A DNA stretch of 44,813 nucleotides from Methylophaga sp. (lineage in GTDB: Bacteria; Pseudomonadota; Gammaproteobacteria; Nitrosococcales; Methylophagaceae). The stretch is taken from assembly GCA_002733105.1 (NCBI GenBank), contig NVUI01000002.1, forward strand, positions 34,581 through 79,393. The letters are read 5' to 3'. Position numbers and translations under genes: made by a program. Under the pieces are notes generated by a model. It had not been told where the DNA came from. It made no database searches and was given only the letters and a program-made list of their open reading frames with translations. Shown one piece after another: positions 2,627 through 44,487 of the stretch (position 1 is the first letter of the stretch; each line of letters starts with the position of its first letter).

Positions 2627-3427
2627 TCATAACCGGGCTCGACAATGACCACGAATAATCCGCCTCACATAACCAGGCATTACTCGACTAGCACCATGTG
2701 ATGCATCAGTATCATGGACCAAAATGCTCCCTGCTCCCGCAGATAAAGCAACCAAATTAATTATTGGAGTTTCAACGATATTATCAACGCCTCCTATCAA
2801 TTCCTTTTTTTCTGTATAGGACTCTATACGCGTATTTCTATTTCGTGCAGCACTATGAGGTTCGATAAGCATTGGCCCTGCATCTTCCGGTAAGTCATCT
2901 AAATACACCCAATATTTTAATGTTTGAGCCCGATCCCAGTGTAATTTACCACTTAATGGCTCTATAGTTTCTGGAGTTTCATGCACAAAAGCCTCTGACA
3001 CATGAAAAAAACCAGTGCTACCAGCATAAAAAAGCCGTGTAATAGAACGTAAAACATTTGAATTATAAAAGGCATAAATAGTGGGATACCGAATAAAATT
3101 CTTGATTCTAAAAAATGGTTTCATTCGCACACAAATAGCACCATCATGACGGTCAATCCCAGAAGTCACCCCTTCAGATGAATCTATTATCGCTCGAAAT
3201 TCAGCACGCATTTTTTCAAGCACTTCACCAGTAAATACATTTGGAATTATTAAATAATTATTTTTCCTTACCTCATCAACAATATCATTTACATCAACTC
3301 CTTCGCTATCAATTGCTGTAATAATTTTTTTGTCCACTTCAGATTGAACAGAACTCCCGCTTAAAAATTTTTGTGCTAGGCCTAATATGTTCGACAGAGC
3401 TGTATTTAGTGTCTCAATAATTTTCAC
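2627..3427 (-). CDS. Phytanoyl-CoA dioxygenase (PhyH) family oxygenase
   Basis: A 266-residue Fe(II)/2-oxoglutarate-dependent oxygenase of the PhyH family. The iron-binding HxD is visible as H163-W-D165 in GKLHWDRAQ, followed by the double-stranded beta-helix strand DDLPEDAGPMLIEPHSA. The distal iron ligand is probably H244 (DASHGASR), and R255 or R256 is the likely 2-oxoglutarate-binding arginine. The start is GTG at 3427 behind AAGGAAG. It lies directly downstream of pseI by 15 nt. Members of this family hydroxylate small molecules, sugars and antibiotics; hydroxylation of a sugar or acyl group of the surface glycan is inferred only from location. Confidence 0.85.
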   Translation of the reverse strand: MKIIETLNTALSNILGLAQKFLSGSSVQSEVDKKIITAIDSEGVDVNDIVDEVRKNNYLIIPNVFTGEVLEKMRAEFRAIIDSSEGVTSGIDRHDGAICVRMKPFFRIKNFIRYPTIYAFYNSNVLRSITRLFYAGSTGFFHVSEAFVHETPETIEPLSGKLHWDRAQTLKYWVYLDDLPEDAGPMLIEPHSAARNRNTRIESYTEKKELIGGVDNIVETPIINLVALSAGAGSILVHDTDASHGASRVMPGYVRRIIRGHCRARL

Positions 3428-3442
3428 GCTTCACTTCCTTTA

Positions 3443-4495
3443 TTAGCTGTTAATAAAATCCCAACTAACTCTTGTGCCTTTTGTAACATTTTTTTTCACA
3501 ATTTTACCAAGAATTTTACCGTAATATTTAGGGGGCAGACCATAACCTGGGCGAATACTTTTAATATGCCTCTCTTGTATCGTTTCTCCTGCCGTCATAT
3601 CTTCCACAAAATATAATGATCGCCTAAACTTAGCATTATCCTTCTCGCTGGATTTTCGTTCATAATTTATAGTACCCAAAGCACCCCAGACAGCATTGAT
3701 CTCCTTACATAAGCTCATTAATTCTGTTGGCTCTAATGAAAAGCTGTCATCAGGCCCACCACCATGCCTATCTAAAGTCACGTGTTTTTCAACTATACAA
3801 GCTCCTAAGGCTACCGCAGCAATAGCCGTAGAGTTACCAATAGTATGATCAGAAAGACCTATAGGGATGCCATATCTACTTTGCATATCTGGTATAGTTT
3901 TTAAATTATAATCTTCTGCAGGAGCCGGATAACCACTTACACAATGTAGAATAGCAAGCTCTTTACACCCCCCCTCATAAGCAGCATTAATTGCATCCTG
4001 AATTTCTTCATCATTAGCCATTCCCGTTGATATAATCATCGGCTTCCTTGTTCCCGCAACATATTTGATTAAGTTAGTGTCTATTGCCTCAAACGAAGCA
4101 ATTTTATATGCTGGAGCATTCAAATCTTCCAGAAAATCTACTGCTGTTTTATCAAATGGTGAGCTAAAAATCGTTATATCTAGATTTCTAGCAAAATCAA
4201 ATAATGGCTTATGCCACTCCCACGGCATATGTGCACTTTCATATAGCTCATATAGGCTTTTCCCTGCCCACAATCCTCCGTTTATCATAAAATCTTCTGT
4301 ATCAATATCCATTGTAATAGTGTCAGGACGATAAGTTTGTAATTTTACTGCATCGGCTCCAGATTTTTTTGCAACTTCAATTATTTTCCTAGCAGCATCA
4401 ATCGAGCCGTTATGATTAGCTGAGACCTCCGCAATTACATAGGGTGCATAAAGCTCACCTATTTCTCGACCATTTATTTTTAAACTCTTAGTCAC
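3443..4495 (-). CDS. pseI: Pseudaminic acid synthase
   Basis: PseI condenses phosphoenolpyruvate with 2,4-diacetamido-2,4,6-trideoxy-L-altrose to give pseudaminic acid. The 350-residue protein has the NeuB TIM barrel followed by a C-terminal SAF (antifreeze-like) domain. Family motifs are intact: AEVSANHNG (E23, N27, H28), AVKLQ (K51), KIASFE (K131), LSDHT (H217) and VEKHVTLDR (H238), the two last histidines being the expected metal ligands, and RPGYG (R315). The start is GTG at 4495 behind GGGAAAGAGA. It follows pseG and pseH, giving the usual G-H-I order. Closely related legionaminic or sialic acid synthases are the alternative; the neighbouring pseB, C, G and H decide for Pse. Confidence 0.95.
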   Translation of the reverse strand: MTKSLKINGREIGELYAPYVIAEVSANHNGSIDAARKIIEVAKKSGADAVKLQTYRPDTITMDIDTEDFMINGGLWAGKSLYELYESAHMPWEWHKPLFDFARNLDITIFSSPFDKTAVDFLEDLNAPAYKIASFEAIDTNLIKYVAGTRKPMIISTGMANDEEIQDAINAAYEGGCKELAILHCVSGYPAPAEDYNLKTIPDMQSRYGIPIGLSDHTIGNSTAIAAVALGACIVEKHVTLDRHGGGPDDSFSLEPTELMSLCKEINAVWGALGTINYERKSSEKDNAKFRRSLYFVEDMTAGETIQERHIKSIRPGYGLPPKYYGKILGKIVKKNVTKGTRVSWDFINS

Positions 4496-4534: not shown

Positions 4535-5026
4535 TTACATATTTTTCAATAATCCAAAGCATATAATGTCACAATAATTATTATCTATCACATGGTGCTC
4601 TTTTAGAATACCTTCTTGTTTGAACCCCAATCGTTGATGCAAACGAATAGACGATTGGTTAAAATCCAATACTTCACCAAATATTTTATGCCCTTTTAAC
4701 TCATTAAATACCTTTTTAATAACAAATTGAAGCATGCGTGTACCAGTACCTTTTTCAGACTTAGGATCAATATAGAATCCCCACTCAAAAGCCAGTGTTT
4801 GTTCGTTTCTTTGTTTCAGATGCACAAAACCAATCTCCTTAGTATCCTCTTCATATATAAACACGTGGTGCAATGAATCTTTTGATACTGAATTAAACCA
4901 TTTGATGTGGTCATCGACTGTTATATGTTTTTGTGTGCACATATACTTATTTACAGATGGGTGATTCCGCCAATACCGAATTTTATCAAGATCAGTATCT
5001 ACCATTTCCCTAAGCTCTTGTTTCAT
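4535..5026 (-). CDS. pseH: UDP-4-amino-4,6-dideoxy-N-acetyl-beta-L-altrosamine N-acetyltransferase
   Basis: PseH transfers an acetyl group from acetyl-CoA to the C4 amine made by PseC. The 163-residue protein is a single GNAT domain: an N-terminal strand and helix (REMVDTDLDKIRYWRNHPSV), a central sheet (IGFVHLKQR), the pyrophosphate-binding region (SEKGTGTRMLQFVIKKVF) and the C-terminal strands ending in RLGFKQEGIL. The ATG start overlaps the pseG stop as ATGA, so the two are translationally coupled. Length and neighbours match PseH of other pse loci. Confidence 0.92.
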   Translation of the reverse strand: MKQELREMVDTDLDKIRYWRNHPSVNKYMCTQKHITVDDHIKWFNSVSKDSLHHVFIYEEDTKEIGFVHLKQRNEQTLAFEWGFYIDPKSEKGTGTRMLQFVIKKVFNELKGHKIFGEVLDFNQSSIRLHQRLGFKQEGILKEHHVIDNNYCDIICFGLLKNM

Positions 5027-6102
5027 ATTATTTCTTTTAACCGGTCAATTACTCGCTCACATCCAATTCCATCTACCAATTTAGCTGAATTTGTAGAAAG
5101 ATTTTTTACAACCTTACCTGTTAACTCCGAAAATATTTTTATTAAACTTAATTTAATTGGTTCAGCAACTAATATTACTGCTTTATTTTGTTCTAATATT
5201 TTTGCATTATTTTTCTGGTTTTCTGCCGTAACCACCATTAATGTTGGAAGCCCCAAACAACATCTCTCCCATGAACTCGAACCTGCAGCACCTATTGCTA
5301 AATCATTTTTTGCCATATGTTCAGCTATATTGGTTATCCCTACTAGAACCTGAGTCTTACAATGCATATTTTTTGCTAGCTGTCTTACATTATCTATATG
5401 CGGAGCATTGGCTCCCATAACGATTGTAAGCTCAAATCCTATAGGCAGGTGACAATCTTTTAGTGCCACTATTATTTGACCAGTGACATCTTCTTTATCA
5501 ATTCCACCGAGAGTAATTATAAGATGCTCTATTTTTGGACTTTCTCGATATCGTAGACTGAGCTCTCTCCAATAAGAAAATTCTGATCTTAACAAAGCAA
5601 AACTTGACCCTAATAATAATATGCATTTGTCAGATATAAGCTGATAATAATCAGTAACAACTCTCCCATACGTTTGATCTAACAATACATCACAGTCATG
5701 TTTTCGATTTGCCAAATCATCTATAACCATAAGCTTACTGCAATTAGCTTTTACTATATTTTCCCATTTATAATCTAATGCATAGTGATCAACTACTAAC
5801 AAATCTATCTTAAGTCTTGCAATAATTCTATTTGTTTGACTCGCATCTTCTTCCCATGAAGAGCCTAACCACTTAGCGTACAAGCTTACCTCATCATCAC
5901 ACTTAAAAACCGCGTCTGATGAGAGTTCATATAATTTATATCCAGCCTCAGTGACAACATGATTTAAATTACCTTCATGCTTCCTTGAAATAAAAACAAT
6001 ACTTGTTGCTCTAACACGAAGTTCCTGAGCCAATGTTAAGCATCGCATAAGATGGCCGATGCCTATTGATAGAGAAGAATCAACACGAAAAACTATATTC
6101 AT
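5023..6102 (-). CDS. pseG: UDP-2,4-diacetamido-2,4,6-trideoxy-beta-L-altropyranose hydrolase
   Basis: PseG removes UDP from the diacetylated altrose intermediate, supplying the free sugar for PseI. The protein has 359 residues and a GT-B-like fold related to MurG. The N-terminal loop SIGIGHLMRCL carries H17, the catalytic histidine position of the family. The nucleotide-binding C-terminal half shows ITLGGIDKED and AIGAAGSSSWERCCLGLP, the typical uridine-binding G-x-S-WE signature. It precedes pseH with an ATGA overlap. A hydrolase rather than a transferase is the established role of this subfamily. Confidence 0.93.
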   Translation of the reverse strand: MNIVFRVDSSLSIGIGHLMRCLTLAQELRVRATSIVFISRKHEGNLNHVVTEAGYKLYELSSDAVFKCDDEVSLYAKWLGSSWEEDASQTNRIIARLKIDLLVVDHYALDYKWENIVKANCSKLMVIDDLANRKHDCDVLLDQTYGRVVTDYYQLISDKCILLLGSSFALLRSEFSYWRELSLRYRESPKIEHLIITLGGIDKEDVTGQIIVALKDCHLPIGFELTIVMGANAPHIDNVRQLAKNMHCKTQVLVGITNIAEHMAKNDLAIGAAGSSSWERCCLGLPTLMVVTAENQKNNAKILEQNKAVILVAEPIKLSLIKIFSELTGKVVKNLSTNSAKLVDGIGCERVIDRLKEII

Positions 6103-6174: not shown

Positions 6175-6999
6175 TTAAAAATTGATTCTGCCCTTAATGT
6201 AATGCCTAATCAATTTGGCCGTTCTAATAGGCCAAAACTCAATAAGCCTATATGTATCAAAGTTATTTACTTCAACAAAATATTTTTCAAACCCTGATCT
6301 CTTTTTCCAATCAGCTTTAATCGATATTTTCTCATAAAAAGACTCAGCCATAAACTGATCAAAGCATTCCGCTATCTTCGTTGACAAGTGTGTATGATCT
6401 TTCTGATTTGGATTAAAAACTGAATACCCAATAAATTTCTTATGTAACTTTCCTTTATTGGAAATAGAGGATTTTTGAGGGTCAAAGAATAAACATCCAG
6501 ATTCTCTGCACAGCTTATTCAATTTTTCATTAAGCAAAGAGCTCGCTAGGATTATTTCAGGATTGGGGGTTCCACTACCAATAATTACCGAAGGACTATA
6601 TTTAAAAAACCGAGTAATAGATATGAAGAATCCAACGCGTTTGACTAATTTATTTAGCGCGTCATCATCAACCATAAAATGTTGATTTGATTTGAATATA
6701 TCTTCCTCATCTCTCCCAATATCCCAAACACCATAGGCTAATCGTCTAACATCTGGTTCACCTATTATAAAAGCCAAAACCAAGCCACTTTTTTTCAACT
6801 TGCTTGCCGCCCTCAAATACCTATATGTAGTTACAACAAAATTAAAGTAATTCGCGAAATTATTTTTCCTTCCCTGAGCCAAGAATATTCGAGTTGTAAC
6901 ACTATCTGAAATCTTATAACTGCGAGTATGTGAATCACCTAAAAGCACTAACAATTTGTAACTCCAATTATTATTTTTGAAATAATCACACTTCAGCAA
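6175..6999 (-). CDS. SGNH/GDSL-like hydrolase or acyltransferase-associated protein
   Basis: A 274-residue protein with three SGNH-family blocks: G21-D22-S23-H24 with the nucleophilic serine (LLGDSHTRSY), GEPD at 80-83 in the place of the GxND block, and D201-H-T-H204 as the acid/base pair. There is no signal peptide or membrane segment, so a cytoplasmic site is likely. The last 60 residues (from about FEKYFVEVNN) are an extra basic tail. The start is uncertain: a TTG at 6999 is the first usable codon after an in-frame stop and no strong ribosome site precedes it. It follows the OafA gene, which carries its own SGNH domain; ester hydrolysis or acyl transfer on the glycan is inferred. Confidence 0.72.
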   Translation of the reverse strand: MLKCDYFKNNNWSYKLLVLLGDSHTRSYKISDSVTTRIFLAQGRKNNFANYFNFVVTTYRYLRAASKLKKSGLVLAFIIGEPDVRRLAYGVWDIGRDEEDIFKSNQHFMVDDDALNKLVKRVGFFISITRFFKYSPSVIIGSGTPNPEIILASSLLNEKLNKLCRESGCLFFDPQKSSISNKGKLHKKFIGYSVFNPNQKDHTHLSTKIAECFDQFMAESFYEKISIKADWKKRSGFEKYFVEVNNFDTYRLIEFWPIRTAKLIRHYIKGRINF

Positions 7000-7090: not shown

Positions 7091-8989
7091 TCAATTAAGT
7101 GACAATATCAACAATCTATTATCCTCAATAACTAAGGAAGCCCCATACTTAGACAAATGCGCATGATCACTGTAAACAAGTTTATCGTCATCCAAAACTA
7201 TGCATTGGCTATCAGGGCACAAAGCCTTATACGGATCTATAAAAAATATCCTTCTGTTTTTATTTGAATGCTCTTTAAAACTTGAAATTAAACTAAAAGC
7301 TTCTCCCATTTTTGGTTCAAAATTTTCATTACAATTCCCCTGTCTTCTAAAGACACATTTTTTGTATCCCCCTTCCTTCAACAAATTAGAGGTAGGGACA
7401 TTCCCGACGATTACAATATCATTTGAATAATTCTTCATTTCCAATAACTTATCTATAGAGTCAAAGATTAGCCGTTGACCTTCCAGGTCTAAAATAGTGG
7501 CTTTTATATTTTTTCCTTCAGGTTTTGCCAACATCTTTATCCATCTATGCGCAATCATTATAGGTAAATTATTTGCTAAAGCTTTCTCTCTTAATATCTC
7601 TAATTGCACAAGACAACTATCTCGTACTTTATTGTTCCATAGGTTTGTGATTCCCGGTAGTGAGAGACATGCCGACTTTGTAATACTTAAAAAAGAAATC
7701 TTATTCTTTTTAGCAAAAGTTTCTAACGCTGAAATATATTGAAGAGCATGGCTATCCCCATACAATACAAATGAAGGGGAAGATTTTGTATGTCCATAAA
7801 TATTTACGCCAAAATCATAACCTTCACCACCATAAGTACTTTCAGCTTCATTGATATAATTAAACTGCTTGTCATATTGGCCTTTTATAATTCCATATCT
7901 CATTGCAATACTAGTCAAAATAACAATAGAGCTAACCACTAAAGCACTAAGAAAAATTTGTTTTCTTGTAAATTTTTGTTCTTTTCTAAATGGCTGTTCT
8001 ACATACTTCCAACTAACATATGCAAAGACAAAGGAAAGACTGCATAACAAAAACATGTGTAACCCTGAGAGCCCATCTACTATCCACAGCCTAGAAAATG
8101 CAAATATTGGTTGATGCCATAAATACACGCTATAACTTATCAGGCCTATTCCAACGAATAATTTATTAGATAATAACTTACCTACATATGTCTCAGAATT
8201 CCCATATAAAATAACTAGCGCAGTTCCCAATGTGGGGATTAAAGTATAGACGCTTGGATAAGGCGTTGAACTATCGAATGAAAATATAGAATAAATGATT
8301 AAAGCCATGCCAATTGTGGGTAGAAGCTGAAGGTTTCGACTGTTTAACAATCTGTTTTCCATCATATAAAAAGCTATCAATACTCCAATTAGCAACTCCC
8401 AAACTCTCATCGGTGTCAGATAAAAGCTGGAAAACTCAAGTGTACGCCAAGCCCACTCTGCAAGGCCGAGGCTTACTACTGCAAAGACTCCAACTAATAT
8501 AGTTGTTACTTTTTTACGCACAGCCCAAAATATCGTCATAAAAATGGGGAAGAAAATATAGTATTGTTCTTCTACAGCCAAACTCCACGTATGAAGTAAT
8601 GGCTTTGTTTCTGTCGTAGTTGTGAAGTAATCATCTTGTAGAAAAAAGAAAATATTTGAAATAAAAAATGGAACTGTTATAAGACTATTTGAAAACTCCC
8701 TCAGCTCGCTAGGCACCATCAAAAGCAGAGAAAAAGGTATGCAAATAATCATTAAGAATAATAATGCGGGTAATATACGACGAATTCGCCTGTCATAAAA
8801 TCCAGTTAACGAAAAGGTACCTTTTGTTATTTCAGCTGCAATAATGGATGTAATTAAATAACCACTTATAACAAAAAAAACATCTACACCAATGAATCCA
8901 CCTTTAAAGCATTCATAGCCCGCATGAAAGAGTACCACTGGCACTACAGCAAGGGCACGTAGCCCATCAATTTCCCTACGATATTGCAT
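7091..8989 (-). CDS. OafA-type O-acyltransferase with C-terminal SGNH domain
   Basis: This 632-residue membrane protein matches the OafA/YrhL architecture. Residues 1-360 are an acyltransferase-3 domain with about ten to eleven membrane helices, including the family histidine H22 (LFHAGYECFKGG), GVDVFFVISGYLIT and the RR motif in FYDRRIRRILPAL. After a short periplasmic linker, residues 405-632 are an SGNH domain with the nucleophile in GDSH (411-414) and the catalytic pair in D608-H-A-H611. Proteins of this design O-acetylate O-antigen or other surface glycans at the periplasmic face. It sits 17 nt downstream of the methylase gene. Which sugar hydroxyl it modifies cannot be told. Confidence 0.93.
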   Translation of the reverse strand: MQYRREIDGLRALAVVPVVLFHAGYECFKGGFIGVDVFFVISGYLITSIIAAEITKGTFSLTGFYDRRIRRILPALLFLMIICIPFSLLLMVPSELREFSNSLITVPFFISNIFFFLQDDYFTTTTETKPLLHTWSLAVEEQYYIFFPIFMTIFWAVRKKVTTILVGVFAVVSLGLAEWAWRTLEFSSFYLTPMRVWELLIGVLIAFYMMENRLLNSRNLQLLPTIGMALIIYSIFSFDSSTPYPSVYTLIPTLGTALVILYGNSETYVGKLLSNKLFVGIGLISYSVYLWHQPIFAFSRLWIVDGLSGLHMFLLCSLSFVFAYVSWKYVEQPFRKEQKFTRKQIFLSALVVSSIVILTSIAMRYGIIKGQYDKQFNYINEAESTYGGEGYDFGVNIYGHTKSSPSFVLYGDSHALQYISALETFAKKNKISFLSITKSACLSLPGITNLWNNKVRDSCLVQLEILREKALANNLPIMIAHRWIKMLAKPEGKNIKATILDLEGQRLIFDSIDKLLEMKNYSNDIVIVGNVPTSNLLKEGGYKKCVFRRQGNCNENFEPKMGEAFSLISSFKEHSNKNRRIFFIDPYKALCPDSQCIVLDDDKLVYSDHAHLSKYGASLVIEDNRLLILSLN

Positions 8990-9005: not shown

Positions 9006-9623
9006 CTACTTTTCAAGTAGAAACCACGTAATGTCATCCTGTGAAAAAGCAGGATCTTTTTTATATGCAAAACCATAATCTACCAACTTGAGATCTTTAT
9101 ATTTATCCAACATTTCCCCACAAAAATCTCTTTTATATAATTTGTCAGAATGCCCGCGATAATTAATGACAACAGGGGTAGGATTATAATATTCGCCAAT
9201 TAATATATATTTTTTTGATGATGTATATAGTCGCTCGTAGGCTATCGGTAACATATCTGGATTGATATGAATTAAAACCCCTTTAATTAAGGCTAGTTCA
9301 TATTTTTCATCTGCCTCAAAATCAAAAATTGAACCATTGAATACGTTATCATCGCCCACGTATGATTTAAGCTCATTTGCCGCTTTAGTATTAATTTCAA
9401 TTCCAAACTGCTTTTGCTCAGGGAATAACAACTTTAATGCCCTGAGGTTCATTCCAATATTGCTTCCAAACTCAACTACCGAGTTCACTTTACCAGCTGA
9501 TTTTAATGCTTTTGAGAAAAAATTAAGGTTCGAAGCAAGTAACCGTTCACTATTATTCCTCTCAATATAATCGTCGCCAAAATTTCCAGCCCAAAATTCT
9601 TCTTGACTAGTTTCGTAACCCAT
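9006..9623 (-). CDS. Pseudaminic acid biosynthesis-associated methyltransferase
   Basis: A 205-residue class I SAM-dependent methyltransferase. The SAM-binding motif I is VVEFGSNIGMNLRAL (about residues 48-62), followed by an acidic strand end (FGIEINTKAA) and the post-motif LALIKGVLIHINPD. The opening TSQEEFWAGNFGDDYIERN is typical of the small methylase family repeatedly found inside pse gene clusters. It could methylate a hydroxyl or the N-acyl group of pseudaminic acid; its exact target is unknown even in the family. It lies between the NeuB paralogue and the OafA gene. Confidence 0.87.
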   Translation of the reverse strand: MGYETSQEEFWAGNFGDDYIERNNSERLLASNLNFFSKALKSAGKVNSVVEFGSNIGMNLRALKLLFPEQKQFGIEINTKAANELKSYVGDDNVFNGSIFDFEADEKYELALIKGVLIHINPDMLPIAYERLYTSSKKYILIGEYYNPTPVVINYRGHSDKLYKRDFCGEMLDKYKDLKLVDYGFAYKKDPAFSQDDITWFLLEK

Positions 9624-9672: not shown

Positions 9673-10737
9673 TTAGTCTAGATCAGCCCATAAAACCTTT
9701 GTTTCTTTGCGAATATCTTTTGATACTTTTCTTCCACATAGCTGATCAACTGAAAATGCTTGTATCCCATCACCAGGCCTTCGGGCTGATAACATTTCAT
9801 CGGTAATAACATCACCTTTTTTAACATCACAATTTAGGTATAGACTTTTAAAGGCCCATTTACTGGTTGCTCGGTCATCATCCGTTGGTAAAACGGTTGA
9901 GAAGCCAAGCGTTTGCTCCAACTCTTTAACACGTTGAATCCATTTATAAAACTCACTTGGATCAAGTGCCTTAATATGGCCATTTTGTGGTATTGCTCTG
10001 TCAACAGTTAAACGCTTTTCTAAAATATTGGCACCCAAGCCAATTGCCATGTAGTCCATGTCGTTATCTCGGCCTTGAGGTGTATAACCAACAGGAAAGC
10101 CAAAGAATTCTTTCATATAAGGTATTGCACGAAAATTCATCTGAGAATGATTTGTAGTGTGGAAATCATGTAAAATTAAAACGCCTCTTCCACCAGCTTC
10201 ACTATGCCAATCTAATGTTCTCGCTAATGTTTGTGTTGTGAACATCCCGGTGTCAAGCATCAACGGCTTACCTGTTTTACCAATTTCCTGAATAAGCCGC
10301 TTATGTGTCATGCTCCATGTACATATTTTATGTATATTGACATTTATTTTTTCTAATAATGGAACAGCATCTATCGTATGCGCTGTACAAATAAACTCTA
10401 TGCCTTTGCTACGCACATACTGTGCAATTTTTATCCATTCATCTTCTGAATAATTAAGCTTCGAAAACATTTCGTACATATTTTCAGTTTTTGGTCCATC
10501 ATTCAATGTAGGGTAAGTATATTCAATACTTTTATCTCCTAATAATGTATCAGGCCCTATCATCTGAAATTTAACTGCATCTACCCCCATAGAACTAGCA
10601 AGATCAATTAAATTAAATGTTCTCTCTAAATCTCCCCCATTGGTTAACCCTAAGTCAGCCATTATGTAGATAGGCTGGCCATCACCAATATTTTTTTCAC
10701 CCACCTTTATAGTGTTGGATACCAAATTATTACTCAT
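9673..10737 (-). CDS. Diverged NeuB-family protein lacking the metal-ligand histidines
   Basis: This 354-residue protein has the same TIM barrel plus SAF-domain layout as PseI in this window and aligns with it end to end. Substrate-side lysines are kept (K56 in AVKFQ, K137 in IHKIC), as are the SAF motif RRPGDG and its arginine R320. Several active-site positions differ. PseI E23 is D28. The NHNG loop is TNGGD. The SDH motif reads TPQ, with Q221 in place of H217. EKH reads EKR, with R242 in place of H238. In characterised NeuB enzymes those two histidines hold the catalytic metal. The frame is intact, so it is probably functional but not a standard synthase. It lies between pseF and the methylase. 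A variant aldolase, a metal-free enzyme or a regulatory partner are all possible. Confidence 0.88.
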   Translation of the reverse strand: MSNNLVSNTIKVGEKNIGDGQPIYIMADLGLTNGGDLERTFNLIDLASSMGVDAVKFQMIGPDTLLGDKSIEYTYPTLNDGPKTENMYEMFSKLNYSEDEWIKIAQYVRSKGIEFICTAHTIDAVPLLEKINVNIHKICTWSMTHKRLIQEIGKTGKPLMLDTGMFTTQTLARTLDWHSEAGGRGVLILHDFHTTNHSQMNFRAIPYMKEFFGFPVGYTPQGRDNDMDYMAIGLGANILEKRLTVDRAIPQNGHIKALDPSEFYKWIQRVKELEQTLGFSTVLPTDDDRATSKWAFKSLYLNCDVKKGDVITDEMLSARRPGDGIQAFSVDQLCGRKVSKDIRKETKVLWADLD

Positions 10738-10748
10738 ATAAATACCCT

Positions 10749-11462
10749 TTATTGTTCATGTAAACCTGCCTCATATAAAAATACTGCAAATTGATATTCT
10801 AATTCAGTATCAATATCCAAGGAACGTGCAGCAGGCATAATATATGGAATTATACTCTCAGATTGATACCCTTTGTTCTTTTGGATGGCATGGGAGTTTA
10901 CAATTAATATGGCACCATTACTTCTATAGGTGCTGGGGCATTCTGTAGATTTAGTATATCTATATGACGAGTCCGGAAAGCATGGCGACAACACATCTTC
11001 GCTCTCCGTTTTATTTATTAGCCATGCATTATAAGGTGGAAATTCTGTATTCGTTACACTCAATAATGCATTATCGCCTCTATCATTGAAAACGTCCATC
11101 GCATTTTTAATATCAGCTACTGTTACAAATGGTGCCGTTGGTAACAAGACACACACTTGCTCAAAAAAATCACCTTGTTCTTTATAATAATTAAGTGCAT
11201 GTAGCACAACATCTACGATTGTTGCTGGGTCATGAGATAATTTTTCAGGCCTTATGAAAGGAACTTCTGCCCCTTGATATTTTGCTAACTCTGCTATGGC
11301 CAAATCTTCCGTTGATACACATACATGCTTAAATATTCTTGCTTCTAGAGCTTTCTTAATTGAGCGCGAAATCAATGGCTCGCCACCAAGTGGCAACATG
11401 TTTTTCCTATGCAAGCGTGTCGAACAACCTTTTGCAGGTATCAAACATAATGTATCAACCAT
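10749..11462 (-). CDS. pseF: Pseudaminate cytidylyltransferase
   Basis: PseF activates pseudaminic acid with CTP to CMP-Pse. The 237-residue protein belongs to the acylneuraminate cytidylyltransferase (NeuA/KdsB) family. The N-terminal CTP-binding loop reads LIPAKGCSTRLHRKN, with the conserved RKN but AKGCS where most members have ARGGS. Later blocks include HVCVSTEDLAIAELA, PATIVDVVLHAL and VLLPTAPFV. I chose the ATG at 11462; a TTG just before it is less likely. It follows pseC by 27 nt. CMP-legionaminate synthetase is a weaker alternative, disfavoured by the pse context. Confidence 0.9.
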   Translation of the reverse strand: MVDTLCLIPAKGCSTRLHRKNMLPLGGEPLISRSIKKALEARIFKHVCVSTEDLAIAELAKYQGAEVPFIRPEKLSHDPATIVDVVLHALNYYKEQGDFFEQVCVLLPTAPFVTVADIKNAMDVFNDRGDNALLSVTNTEFPPYNAWLINKTESEDVLSPCFPDSSYRYTKSTECPSTYRSNGAILIVNSHAIQKNKGYQSESIIPYIMPAARSLDIDTELEYQFAVFLYEAGLHEQ

Positions 11463-11489
11463 CAAGGTTCCTTGTTATAAAAAGCACGT

Positions 11490-12653
11490 TTAGCCTAATC
11501 TTACCACTTGCTTAATTTGCTCTACGACATAATCTTGTTGTTGATGCGTCATACCGGAAAACAAAGGTATTGTAATAACACTATTATAATACGCCTCCGC
11601 CTCAGGATAATCTCCTAGTTTAAACCCCAAAGACTGATAATACGGCTGTGTATGGACAGGGATATAATGTACATTTACACCAACCCCTTTACTACGAAGC
11701 TCACTAAAGATCTGACGTTTTGTTTTGGTGACCTCATCAAGCTTAAGTAGAATTGGGTATAAATGATATGACGAAATACTATCTGAATTCTGTAATGGTA
11801 TCACTACTGGAAGTTGAGCTAATTGTTCAACATATCTTCGTGCGAGTGCATGGCGATCATTTATAAACTCTTTCAGCTTTGCCATTTGACTACAGCCTAA
11901 CGCAGCTTGTATATCTGTCATTCGATAGTTGAAACCTAACATTGACTGTTGATAGTACCAGTCACCATCAGGCTCTTTACTCATTTCGCTCTGCTCACGA
12001 GTAATTCCATGGCTACGAAGCATCTCCATTCTTCTTGCTAAATTTTTCGAGTTTGTTGTCGCCATACCACCTTCACCAGTGGTAATTATTTTTACTGGAT
12101 GGAAGCTAAACACGGTTATATCTGAGTACTGGCAATTACCAACCGGTTGTTTTTTATACTCACCACCAATAGCATGAGAAGCATCTTCAATTATTCTAAA
12201 ACCATATTTCTGACTTAATTCATAAATCCTTTTCATATCACAGGATTGACCTGCAAAATGCACTGGTATGACAATTTTTGGTAAGCGATTATTAGCCTTA
12301 GCTTCAATCAATTTCTTTTCAAGCTTCTTGGCACAAAGGTTATATGACTGTGAATCAATATCAACAAAATCTACTTTAGCTCCACAATATAACCCGCAAT
12401 TTGCTGAAGCAACAAAAGTGTTTGGGCTAGTCCAAAGCCAATCATCCTCCCCAAGTTCTAGAGCAAGACATGCAATATGTAGGGCTGAAGTCCCACTATT
12501 AACAGCGACTGCATATTGACTATTCACAGAGTGGCAAACTGCCTGCTCAAATGTAGGGACAGCCGGCCCTTGAGTAAGATAATCTGACTTCAAGACATTG
12601 ATAACAGCTTCAATATCTTCATTTGAAATAGTTTGTCGCCCGTAAGGAATCAT
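11490..12653 (-). CDS. pseC: UDP-4-amino-4,6-dideoxy-N-acetyl-beta-L-altrosamine transaminase
   Basis: PseC uses PLP and glutamate to aminate the C4 keto group of the PseB product. The 387-residue protein belongs to the DegT/DnrJ/EryC1 aminotransferase family. Visible features are the opening IPYGRQTISNEDIEAV, the cofactor phosphate loop NSGTSALHIA, the EDASHAIGGEY aspartate motif and the PLP lysine K188 in SFHPVKIITTGEGGM. Its start follows the pseB stop directly (TAAATG), so the two are translationally linked as in most pse loci. Confidence 0.95.
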   Translation of the reverse strand: MIPYGRQTISNEDIEAVINVLKSDYLTQGPAVPTFEQAVCHSVNSQYAVAVNSGTSALHIACLALELGEDDWLWTSPNTFVASANCGLYCGAKVDFVDIDSQSYNLCAKKLEKKLIEAKANNRLPKIVIPVHFAGQSCDMKRIYELSQKYGFRIIEDASHAIGGEYKKQPVGNCQYSDITVFSFHPVKIITTGEGGMATTNSKNLARRMEMLRSHGITREQSEMSKEPDGDWYYQQSMLGFNYRMTDIQAALGCSQMAKLKEFINDRHALARRYVEQLAQLPVVIPLQNSDSISSYHLYPILLKLDEVTKTKRQIFSELRSKGVGVNVHYIPVHTQPYYQSLGFKLGDYPEAEAYYNSVITIPLFSGMTHQQQDYVVEQIKQVVRLG

Positions 12654-13750
<1,097 letters not shown>

Positions 13751-41477: not shown

Positions 41478-41917
41478 AAAAACTTGATCCAAAACAATTT
41501 ATTCACTCTCAGAAATATGGTGTGTTATCAACACACTCACAATCTGAAGCTGGCTATCCCTTTGGTTCCGTCACACCTTATATCATTAGTGAACATGGTG
41601 ATATTGTAATATTCATTAGCCATCTGGCAGAACATACCCATAATATTCAAGCCAATCCTAAAGTATCATTGACAATTTTTGACCCTACTGATGTTGATAA
41701 CCCAAGTGCTGGTGCACGTGTCACTTGCTTAGCTAATGCAGAACTGGCTAAAGATGAAACTCAACTACGCACACACTATCTTGACAAATTTCCTACCGCT
41801 TCGATGATATTAGCATTACCCGGATTTAACTTTTATTTATTAAAATTATCTAAAATTAGATTAGTAGCAGGCTTCGGCCAAGTAGAATGGTTAGATCCAA
41901 CATTATTAGATCTTTAA
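41474..41917 (+). CDS. PNPOx-fold (HugZ-like) flavin- or heme-binding protein
   Basis: From ATG 41474 this protein has 147 residues and the split-barrel fold of pyridoxamine-phosphate oxidase relatives: KYGVLSTHSQSEAGYPFGSVTP (residues about 13-34), an ISHLAEHTHNIQANPKVSLTIFD strand-helix-strand, and an ending VAGFGQVEWLDP typical of HugZ/PNPOx-like proteins. The C-terminal DUF2470 of true HugZ is absent. The start overlaps the protease stop. Binding of FMN or heme is possible but not shown. Its 3' end overlaps the 3' end of cbbR by 12 nt. Confidence 0.85.
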   Translation: MKKLDPKQFIHSQKYGVLSTHSQSEAGYPFGSVTPYIISEHGDIVIFISHLAEHTHNIQANPKVSLTIFDPTDVDNPSAGARVTCLANAELAKDETQLRTHYLDKFPTASMILALPGFNFYLLKLSKIRLVAGFGQVEWLDPTLLDL

Positions 41918-42808
41918 TATTGTACCCGTTTCATCTATCACTAACCGCTTGAACGCTTCCATTAATGCCGTTAAACGTTTGCCTCGACGATGCACTAGGT
42001 ACCAATGACGTACAATAGGAAATGATTCTACATCCAATACATGTAATCGTGCTGAAGAAAGTTCCGCTTCTACAGTATGCAGTGATGCAATACCCAAACC
42101 CAATCCTGCTTCAACAGCCTGACTAATAGCTTCATTACTACTCATTTCCATTACGGAGCTAATGCTATAACCATTTTGTTCAAAAAAATGCTCCATTGCG
42201 ATCCTTGTACCCGATCCATGCTCACGCATAATAAAGGTCTCCTGCTGCAAAACAGATAATGGGATTTGTTTTTGGGTAATTAATTCATGTCCTTTAGGCG
42301 CGATAACAACTAATGCATTTTCCAAAAAGGGAGTTGCTTCGACATCCAACCCTTCTGGTGGTTGCCCCATGATCACCATATCAACCGTATTATCATTCAA
42401 ATGATTTAATAAACTTTCACGATTGGTGACATCTAGACTAATTTTTGTACTCGAAAATCGCCGATAAAATTCGCCTAATAATTTCAAAGAAAAATAGTTA
42501 GCGGTTGTTGCGACAGCAATAGTCAGTCGCCCTCTTTCACTTCCTCGTATTTCATTGAACACATCATCTAACTCGACGAGTTGTTGTGAAATGTTCCGTG
42601 CGTAAATAAGTAATTCTTCACCAGCTTCAGTTAAAAATAATTTTTTACCTATCCGTTCAAACAAAGGGACTTCAACTTCATTTTCCAATTGTTTTATTTG
42701 CATTGAAACAGCCGGCTGGCTTAGATATAGTAATTCAGCCGCACGGGTATAACTTAAATGTTGTGCAACAGCTTCAAAAATTTGAAATTGGCGTATTGTT
42801 ATGTTCAT
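41906..42808 (-). CDS. cbbR: LysR-type regulator CbbR
   Basis: CbbR controls the RuBisCO operon, sensing metabolites of the Calvin cycle. The 300-residue protein has an N-terminal winged helix-turn-helix (HLSYTRAAELLYLSQPAVSMQIKQLE) and a C-terminal substrate-binding domain starting near residue 90 (RLTIAVATTANYF). It is read away from cbbL across a 257-nt region with two AT-rich palindromes. LysR proteins of other types cannot be excluded, but this divergent position next to cbbL is the rule for CbbR. Confidence 0.93.
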   Translation of the reverse strand: MNITIRQFQIFEAVAQHLSYTRAAELLYLSQPAVSMQIKQLENEVEVPLFERIGKKLFLTEAGEELLIYARNISQQLVELDDVFNEIRGSERGRLTIAVATTANYFSLKLLGEFYRRFSSTKISLDVTNRESLLNHLNDNTVDMVIMGQPPEGLDVEATPFLENALVVIAPKGHELITQKQIPLSVLQQETFIMREHGSGTRIAMEHFFEQNGYSISSVMEMSSNEAISQAVEAGLGLGIASLHTVEAELSSARLHVLDVESFPIVRHWYLVHRRGKRLTALMEAFKRLVIDETGTILKI

Positions 42809-42870: not shown

Positions 42871-43065
42871 AAATGGCCTACACTTCTCCCACGTCAAAAA
42901 TTAGACGAGTAGATTATAAATATCGAATTGCAGAGAAACTCCTACCGCTTACGCTTACGTATGCTAACGTGTAAGTGTTAGATGTTTAGGGCCAAGTCAA
43001 TAAACAATTTTTGGACTAGGGGGAGTTATTCCGCTAGTCAAATATAGAAAAAGAGGATGCGAGCA

Positions 43066-44487
43066 ATGTCAGAAAAAAAATATACTGCTGGTGTAAAAGC
43101 GTACCGTGAAACGTACTGGATGCCAGAATACACTCCGAAAGAAACAGACCTTTTGGCCTGTTTTAAAATTACACCACAAGACGGTGTGCCTCGTGAAGAG
43201 ATTGCGGCAGCAGTTGCTGCTGAATCTTCAACAGGAACATGGACCACAGTCTGGACAGATCTATTAACTGATCTCGACTACTACAAAGGCCGTGCATACG
43301 CTATTGAAGATGTGCCAGGCGATGACACTTGTTTTTATGCATTTATTGCCTACCCAATCGATCTATTCGAAGAAGGCTCAGTTGTTAACGTATTAACATC
43401 TTTAGTGGGTAATGTGTTTGGCTTTAAAGCACTTCGTGCACTTCGCCTAGAAGATATCCGTTTCCCTATTGCTTACGTTATGACATGTAATGGTCCACCG
43501 CAAGGTATCCAAGTTGAACGTGACATCCTTAATAAATACGGTCGCCCATTATTAGGTTGTACTATCAAGCCTAAACTAGGTCTATCTGCGAAAAACTACG
43601 GTCGTGCTTGTTATGAAGGTCTACGTGGTGGTTTAGATTTCACCAAAGATGATGAAAACGTAAACTCACAACCATTCATGCGTTGGAGACACCGTTTTGA
43701 TTTTGTAATGGAAGCGATTCACAAAGCTGAAGCCGAAACAGGTGAACGCAAAGGTCACTACTTAAACGTTACTGCCCCTACCGCTGACGAAATGATGAAA
43801 CGTGCTGAATACGCAAAAGAAATCGGCGCACCGATCATCATGCATGATTACTTAACGGGTGGTTTATCAGCGAATACTCAACTTGCACAATGGTGTCAAG
43901 ATAACGGTATGTTGTTACATATTCACCGTGCGATGCATGCGGTACTTGATCGTAACCCACACCACGGTATTCACTTCCGCGTATTAACTAAAGTATTACG
44001 TCTGTCAGGTGGTGATCATCTGCATTCAGGTACTGTTGTGGGTAAATTAGAAGGTGACCGTGATGCAACATTAGGTTGGATCGACATCATGCGTGACTCA
44101 TATATCAAAGAAGATCGTTCACGCGGTATCTTCTTTGACCAAGATTGGGGCGCAATGCCAGGTGTTTTTCCTGTTGCTTCTGGTGGTATCCATGTATGGC
44201 ATATGCCAGCATTGGTTAGCATCTTTGGTGATGATTCTTGCCTACAGTTCGGTGGTGGTACATTAGGCCATCCTTGGGGTAATGCTGCTGGTGCTGCTGC
44301 TAACCGTGTTGCGGTTGAAGCCTGTGTTGAAGCTCGTAACTCTGGTGTTGAGCTTGAGAAAGAAGGTAAGGACATCCTTACTAAAGCGGCGAAACACAGC
44401 CCAGAACTCAAGATCGCTATGGAAACGTGGAAAGAAATCAAATTTGAATTTGATACTGTTGATAAAATCGACGTTGCGCATAAATAA
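43066..44487 (+). CDS. cbbL: RuBisCO large subunit, form I
   Basis: CbbL fixes CO2 on ribulose-1,5-bisphosphate. From ATG 43066, eight bases after AGAGGA, the protein has 473 residues, the length of proteobacterial form IA; an ATG three codons upstream is less likely. K168 and K170 in TIKPKLGLS, the carbamylated lysine K194 in [25 protein letters not shown] (loop 6) and [13 protein letters not shown] are all present. The opening [19 protein letters not shown] matches green-type IA enzymes. cbbS follows in the same operon. Confidence 0.98.

Follow-up and report, generated by a model that had tools for sequence, protein, structure and literature searches.

Synthases of the NeuB family are treated as catalyzing a single reaction in which one sugar substrate can stand in for another, and where they are found, genome annotation predicts sialic-acid-like sugars. 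The active sites of the NeuB-type barrel fold lie at the C-terminal ends of the strands, and the characterized family members need a metal for full activity. In the synthase of Neisseria meningitidis this is Mn, which is held by H215 and H236. The published list of ligand contacts in this enzyme includes H215 and E25, and within NeuB dimers the SAF domain is swapped together with its Arg (PMC6795526). At one position of the pocket, PseI has a Phe where the Neu and Leg synthases have a Gly (PMC7371886).

The window analyzed here, a stretch of 44,813 nucleotides from Methylophaga sp., carries a pse operon on its minus strand that contains a second NeuB-family gene. In order of transcription, the operon encodes PseB (12654..13682; TIGR03589, 556 bits), PseC (11490..12653; TIGR03588, 583 bits), a PseF-like cytidylyltransferase (10749..11465; TIGR03584, 163 bits, under the cut-off of 205.7), the NeuB-family paralogue (9673..10737), a Pse-associated methylase (9006..9623; TIGR03587, 304 bits, cut-off 112), an AT3-SGNH acyltransferase (7091..8989), a 274-aa protein with no Pfam match that is 62% identical to a protein of the L033 cluster described below (6175..6999), PseG (5023..6102; TIGR03590, 308 bits), PseH (4535..5026; TIGR03585, 126 bits), a canonical PseI with all metal-site residues present (3443..4495; TIGR03586, 501 bits, cut-off 340) and, after pseI, a PhyH-type (Fe/2-oxoglutarate) dioxygenase (2627..3427). 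Among the named Pse genes, PseF is the only one that does not exceed its family cut-off, and the steps from UDP-GlcNAc to CMP-Pse are all covered by genes other than the paralogue. The acyltransferase and the 274-aa protein suggest a possible O-acylation of the sugar. The dioxygenase, which has relatives in the same cluster of L033 (44%) and L034 (27%), could act as a hydroxylase on the nonulosonic acid or on a precursor of it. Elsewhere in the window, a form I RuBisCO large subunit (43057-44487, plus strand) is recognized by eye in the translation, and upstream of it lies a divergent regulator of the LysR type (41906-42808, minus strand); this suggests that the bacterium is autotrophic, perhaps sulfur-oxidizing.

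The open reading frame of the paralogue is intact and encodes 354 aa. Its ATG is found 11 bases past the stop of the pseF-like gene and is preceded, seven bases 5', by AAGGG. The location in the middle of the operon, beside pseF and the methylase, agrees with the original prediction. Both Pfam domains score above their cut-offs (NeuB PF03102, 162.4 bits against 22.1; SAF PF08666, 28.2 bits against 21), and both equivalog models score below theirs (TIGR03586 for PseI, 164.1 bits against 340.25; TIGR03569 for NeuB/NnaB, 208 bits against 399.65). An AlphaFold2 model built with 48 aligned rows reached a pLDDT of 94.1, and its best solved matches were N. meningitidis NeuB (TM 0.80) and C. jejuni PseI (TM 0.81 to 0.84). 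VIA-align gave Z scores of 36.3 to 36.4 for NeuB (1xuu) and 33.7 for PseI (8h2c), compared with 25 to 28 for KDO8P and DAHP synthases. By its domains and predicted fold, the paralogue is a member of the NeuB superfamily. The window's assembly, which is ~83% complete, shows only two NeuB-family genes, the paralogue and PseI.

We aligned the paralogue with PseI of the same window and with the solved N. meningitidis NeuB, using E25, K53, K129, H215, H236, and R314 of the latter as reference columns. The two metal-ligand histidines of the characterized NulO synthases (NeuB, LegI, and PseI) are absent. Instead, the paralogue has Q221 (codon 10075..10077, minus strand like all codons below; H217 in PseI, H215 in N. 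meningitidis), which is part of an invariant TPQGR, and R242 (10012..10014; H238 in PseI, H236 in N. meningitidis), which is part of an invariant EKRLT. The family-invariant Glu (E23 in PseI, E25 in N. meningitidis) is replaced by D28 (10654..10656) and the NHNG loop by T32-N33-G34-G35 (TNGG; 10633..10644). All of these changes had been predicted from comparison with PseI, as had the retention of the pocket lysines K56 (10570..10572; K51 in PseI, K53 in N. meningitidis) and K137 (10327..10329; K131 and K129) and of the SAF arginine R320 (9778..9780; R315 and R314). The constant offset of four residues on which that comparison relied is found for residues 217 to 238 only; it is five at E23, K51, and R315 and six at K131.

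Five changes go beyond those originally listed. H120 (10378..10380) is a new invariant pocket His at the position of F112 in N. meningitidis, S142 replaces E134, and D162 (10252..10254) replaces the serine of the STG motif (S154). After strand 6, the C..GYP segment has given way to D191-F192-H193-T194 (DFHT; 10156..10167), which is two residues shorter and puts H193 at the position of Y186. Finally, N252-G253-H254-x-K256 (9970..9984), part of an NGHxKA motif common to the clade, replaces GPDxxxS, and with G253 in place of D247 the invariant family Asp is gone. The positions taken by H120 and H193 line the ligand pocket of the N. meningitidis enzyme. In addition, W141 (10315..10317) is found where PseI has Phe and NeuB and LegI have Gly. 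Q58, T118, and E240, which correspond to Gln55, Thr110, and Glu234 of N. meningitidis, are kept.

One scan of 84,980 species genomes yielded five clear relatives with 45 to 68% identity to the window protein: one in a bin labelled Flavobacteriales (L033, 68%), three in Roseobacteraceae (Tateyamaria, L034; Ruegeria sp. ANG-S4, L035; and R. atlantica, L036; 47 to 48%), and one in SAR116 (L037, 47%). A protein of Nitrospiraceae (L038, 34%) is more distant. We refer to the window protein and L033 to L037 as the core clade, six sequences of which one comes from a metagenome bin with a label that may be wrong. D28, T32-G35, H120, C139, W141, S142, H145, D162, D191-T194, T219-R223, E240-T244, N252-H254, and K256 are present without exception in all six, and K56, K137, R320, Q58, T118, and E240 are invariant as well. 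The same replacements in five relatives rule out a sequencing error or a pseudogene. By comparison, His is found at both metal positions in all 41 other NeuB-family proteins aligned, including the six PseI of the same operons, in line with the original description of a paralogue without metal-ligand histidines. L038 has Lys and Arg at these two positions, carries an Asn at that of H120, and lacks D191.

Conservation within the core clade is concentrated in the pocket. We mapped 19 pocket positions onto the paralogue, a set drawn from two papers on NeuB (PMC6795526 and PMC7371886) and supplemented with K53, G133, and H236. Sixteen of the 19 are invariant in the core clade, compared with 92 of the 292 other positions (Fisher P = 7e-6). 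Six of these 16 have the N. meningitidis residue (K56, Q58, T118, K137, E240, and R320), and ten differ from it. A different residue is found at 13 of the 34 columns that are both conserved in the family and invariant in the clade. According to the model and the alignment, most of the changed residues are located at, or adjoin, the C-terminal ends of barrel strands. That a new set of pocket residues is strictly conserved and shared by the clade speaks against both a decaying protein and an inert scaffold.

The core clade received a support of 100/100, with L038 as its sister (100/98 in the first tree, 100/99 in a second sampling). In neither tree is it the sister of PseI, which rules out a recent PseI duplicate and places the paralogue on what is, judging from these trees, an old branch. 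The PseI proteins from paralogue loci form no group apart from those of genomes without the paralogue in either tree. Divergence of the paralogue between genomes is of the same order as that of PseI: the window and L033 are 67.8% identical for the paralogue and 67.8% for PseI, the window and Ruegeria L035 are 47.5% and 59.4% identical, respectively, and Tateyamaria L034 and Ruegeria L035 are 89.6% and 78.7% identical.

The core clade is not the only group in which PseI is accompanied by a second NeuB whose metal site is damaged. In two genomes, an EKT-type second NeuB is encoded between pseC and pseF, upstream of a canonical NeuB or PseI (G121, L155:4646-5707; G1472, L177:7300-8370, minus strand), and in a third, the copy at the same place is broken and split over two ORFs (G365, L171:6724-7793, minus strand). 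These proteins keep the first His, the Glu, and the C..GYP segment; the second metal His is a Thr, and they have LDTG, as in the core clade, rather than STG. The first tree groups them with the core clade at 95/69, with L008 as the next branch, and the second tree separates them, with a p-AU of 0.158 for the joint grouping. A very divergent NeuB-like protein with EKG for EKH, on a long branch, was also met near a LegI-type NeuB (L156:8385-9422).

The paralogue appears to be rare and patchy, given that it was not found in the samples of order, class, phylum, and family. It was not found in 62 other genomes of the window's order, 28 of which belong to the same genus, which rules out a gene particular to the genus. 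Four weaker matches in the order scored 177 to 193 bits, compared with 627, and at three of these four loci the longest ORFs resemble, by eye, neighbors of the NeuC type. Nor was the paralogue found in 368 other genomes of the class (best non-self match, ~30% identity) or in a further 397 genomes from the phylum sample. The family of L035 (394 other genomes), the order of SAR116 (135), and the Nitrospiraceae sample (97) likewise yielded no copy. Viral contigs held ordinary NeuB relatives only (≤32% identity), and plasmids gave matches below 60% only; two Azospirillum plasmid NeuB copies, found with an EKT-type query, have His at both positions. Spread by transfer would most simply account for this distribution. 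In the open-access literature, we came upon no relevant work on NeuB paralogues without catalytic residues or on a sialic acid synthase that is independent of metal, and an earlier description may have been missed.

With respect to its neighbors, the paralogue is encoded at the same locus as an intact PseI in all seven genomes, the six core genomes and that of L038. L033 has the gene order of the window (pseB-pseC-pseF-paralogue-methylase), L034 and L036 have pseB-pseC-paralogue-pseF, and pseF directly follows the paralogue in L035 and L038. At all seven loci, the neighboring PseF scores under the equivalog cut-off (150 to 186 bits). The expectation that proteins with the TPQ/EKR signature would always be accompanied by an intact PseI and the methylase thus holds for PseI; the methylase (TIGR03587) is found in all six core genomes, at the same locus in only four, and was not found in the 1.6 Mb available for the L038 genome. 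Among 239 genomes of the window's class that we sampled for comparison, 22 non-window genomes have a PseI over the cut-off but no paralogue, and four of these (G089, G116, G221, and G232) have the methylase. The hypergeometric probability for 6/6 versus 4/22 is 5.6e-4 (calculated by hand), in genomes that are not independent and belong to different classes, and the link between paralogue and methylase is an association only. The NeuB genes of G197 and G221, where the methylase is present and the core clade is absent, keep EKH. In three paralogue clusters, formyltransferase-like proteins (PF00551) were observed in stretches with no PseH match (L033:6648-7289; L036:1881-2504, minus strand; L037:12198-12800), which points to possible N-formyl variants.

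The functions offered in the original prediction were a metal-free synthase, one of altered specificity, a step yielding a modified nonulosonic acid, and a non-catalytic partner of PseI. With its conserved pocket, the paralogue is more plausible as a protein that binds a ligand and is probably catalytic than as an inert partner; our computations do not distinguish between a metal-free synthase, an enzyme of altered specificity, a relocated metal site, and a ligand-sensing partner. If the gene were a functionless PseI duplicate, in decay or broken not long ago, this would explain the loss of residues that all other family members keep. Such a duplicate is highly improbable, however, as the gene is intact in all six core genomes, its replacements are common to proteins across 45 to 68% identity, the clade is not the sister of PseI, and the only broken copy belongs to the separate EKT-type group. 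The constant presence of an intact PseI, the retention of R320 and the SAF domain, the domain swapping of NeuB dimers with this Arg (PMC6795526), and the loss of both metal ligands could instead indicate a non-catalytic or ligand-sensing partner of PseI. In a mixed domain-swapped dimer, R320 would complete the PseI site, and the paralogue's own pocket would bind a pathway metabolite in a regulatory role. We consider such a partner unlikely, because the pocket is the most invariant part of the paralogue, beyond what a scaffold needs, and because no sign of a partner-adapted PseI is seen in the grouping of PseI in the trees.

It is also conceivable that the paralogue is a metal enzyme with a relocated site, in which H120, H193, H145, D191, D162, or D28 would bind the metal at another place in the pocket. 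This arrangement would fit the presence of three invariant histidines that are new (H120, H145, and H193), with H120 and H193 at the ligand-lining positions of F112 and Y186, and of the acidic D28, D162, and D191. Against it, the sister L038 has already lost both old ligands and yet has neither H120 nor D191, and a nearby metal is not what one would expect from an Arg and a Gln at the old site, so we rate a relocated site as rather improbable. We favor, at somewhat better than even odds and well ahead of the other readings, an active enzyme without the canonical Mn site, Mn-independent or re-specified, representing a rare and widely scattered NeuB-fold subfamily that works beside a normal PseI. 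Catalysis is the step that we infer from the conserved pocket. Several points count against an active enzyme: both metal ligands are gone, and conservation of the pocket fits a ligand sensor as well. Since the route from UDP-GlcNAc to CMP-Pse is covered by other genes, no vacant step points to its reaction. Moreover, D162 and D191 bring extra negative charge into a lysine-retaining pocket, and this could disfavor PEP.

As an active enzyme, the paralogue probably would still bind an amino sugar of the Pse type in its open-chain form, together with a partner that resembles phosphoenolpyruvate or pyruvate. Ligands of this kind are suggested by the retained lysines, Gln, Thr, Glu, and SAF Arg. The part of the metal in orientation and charge stabilization might fall to R242 and Q221, possibly assisted by H120 and H193; otherwise, the chemistry may have changed. 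Because the CMP-Pse pathway is complete without it, the paralogue should add, replace, or control a step. The nonulosonic acid that it might make or modify would differ from plain Pse. Activation of this sugar could then fall to the divergent PseF encoded next to the paralogue, and the co-occurring methylase might methylate it. A possible, if less than probable, reading is that of a previously unrecognized class of nonulosonic-acid enzyme, with a NeuB barrel in which an Arg/Gln/His set replaces the Mn site, that would use metal-free PEP condensation or other chemistry to make or edit a new, perhaps methylated, Pse-type sugar beside PseI. Such other chemistry could, for example, be an aldol reaction with pyruvate that is based on a lysine, K56 or K137. 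Some gene clusters that are annotated as plain Pse pathways probably yield another product or are under different control, and the paralogue offers a natural experiment in the loss of the metal from a barrel that condenses PEP.

Compared with known systems, the paralogue shares with PseI (TIGR03586; PDB 8h2c) the barrel and SAF fold, the pocket lysines, the SAF Arg, and the operon. With Trp for Phe, it also keeps a bulky aromatic where the residue tells Pse enzymes apart from those for Neu/Leg, whereas the metal His, E23, the NHNG loop, and the YP and GPD motifs are replaced and identity is ~23%. With NeuB/NANAS (TIGR03569; PDB 1xuu and 2wqp), it has in common the fold (Z 36, 342 residues aligned) and K53, Q55, T110, K129, E234, and R314, and it differs in H215 (Gln), H236 (Arg), E25 (Asp), D247 (Gly), Y186 (His), F112 (His), and S154 (Asp). 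The NeuB-domain gene SfmA (SO_3261) of Shewanella oneidensis lies in a flagellin modification cluster and is needed for a fully functional filament (PMC3765264). At 290 aa, SfmA is set apart from the paralogue by its length; proteins of similar length met here are SAF-less with both His (EFH). These SAF-less NeuBs (L164 to L169) are mostly 285 to 288 aa long with EFH for EKH, one of them (L169) is encoded beside PseB and PseC homologues, and they may be related to SfmA. The known enzymes of 8-epimerization, EpaA/EpaB, comprise a cytidylyltransferase-reductase and a dehydrogenase (PMC12053666); they are not NeuB-like, and an enzyme of this known type was rejected. The EKT-type second NeuB resembles the paralogue in its place between pseC and pseF beside a canonical PseI/NeuB and in the loss of the second metal His, but not in its first His, Glu, and C..GYP segment, all of which it retains. 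In the wider superfamily, the metal-independent KDO8P synthases set a precedent for PEP condensation without a metal. There, one Cys ligand has become an Asn while the remaining ligands stay, whereas in the paralogue the whole site has been rebuilt, and we use these enzymes as an analogy only.
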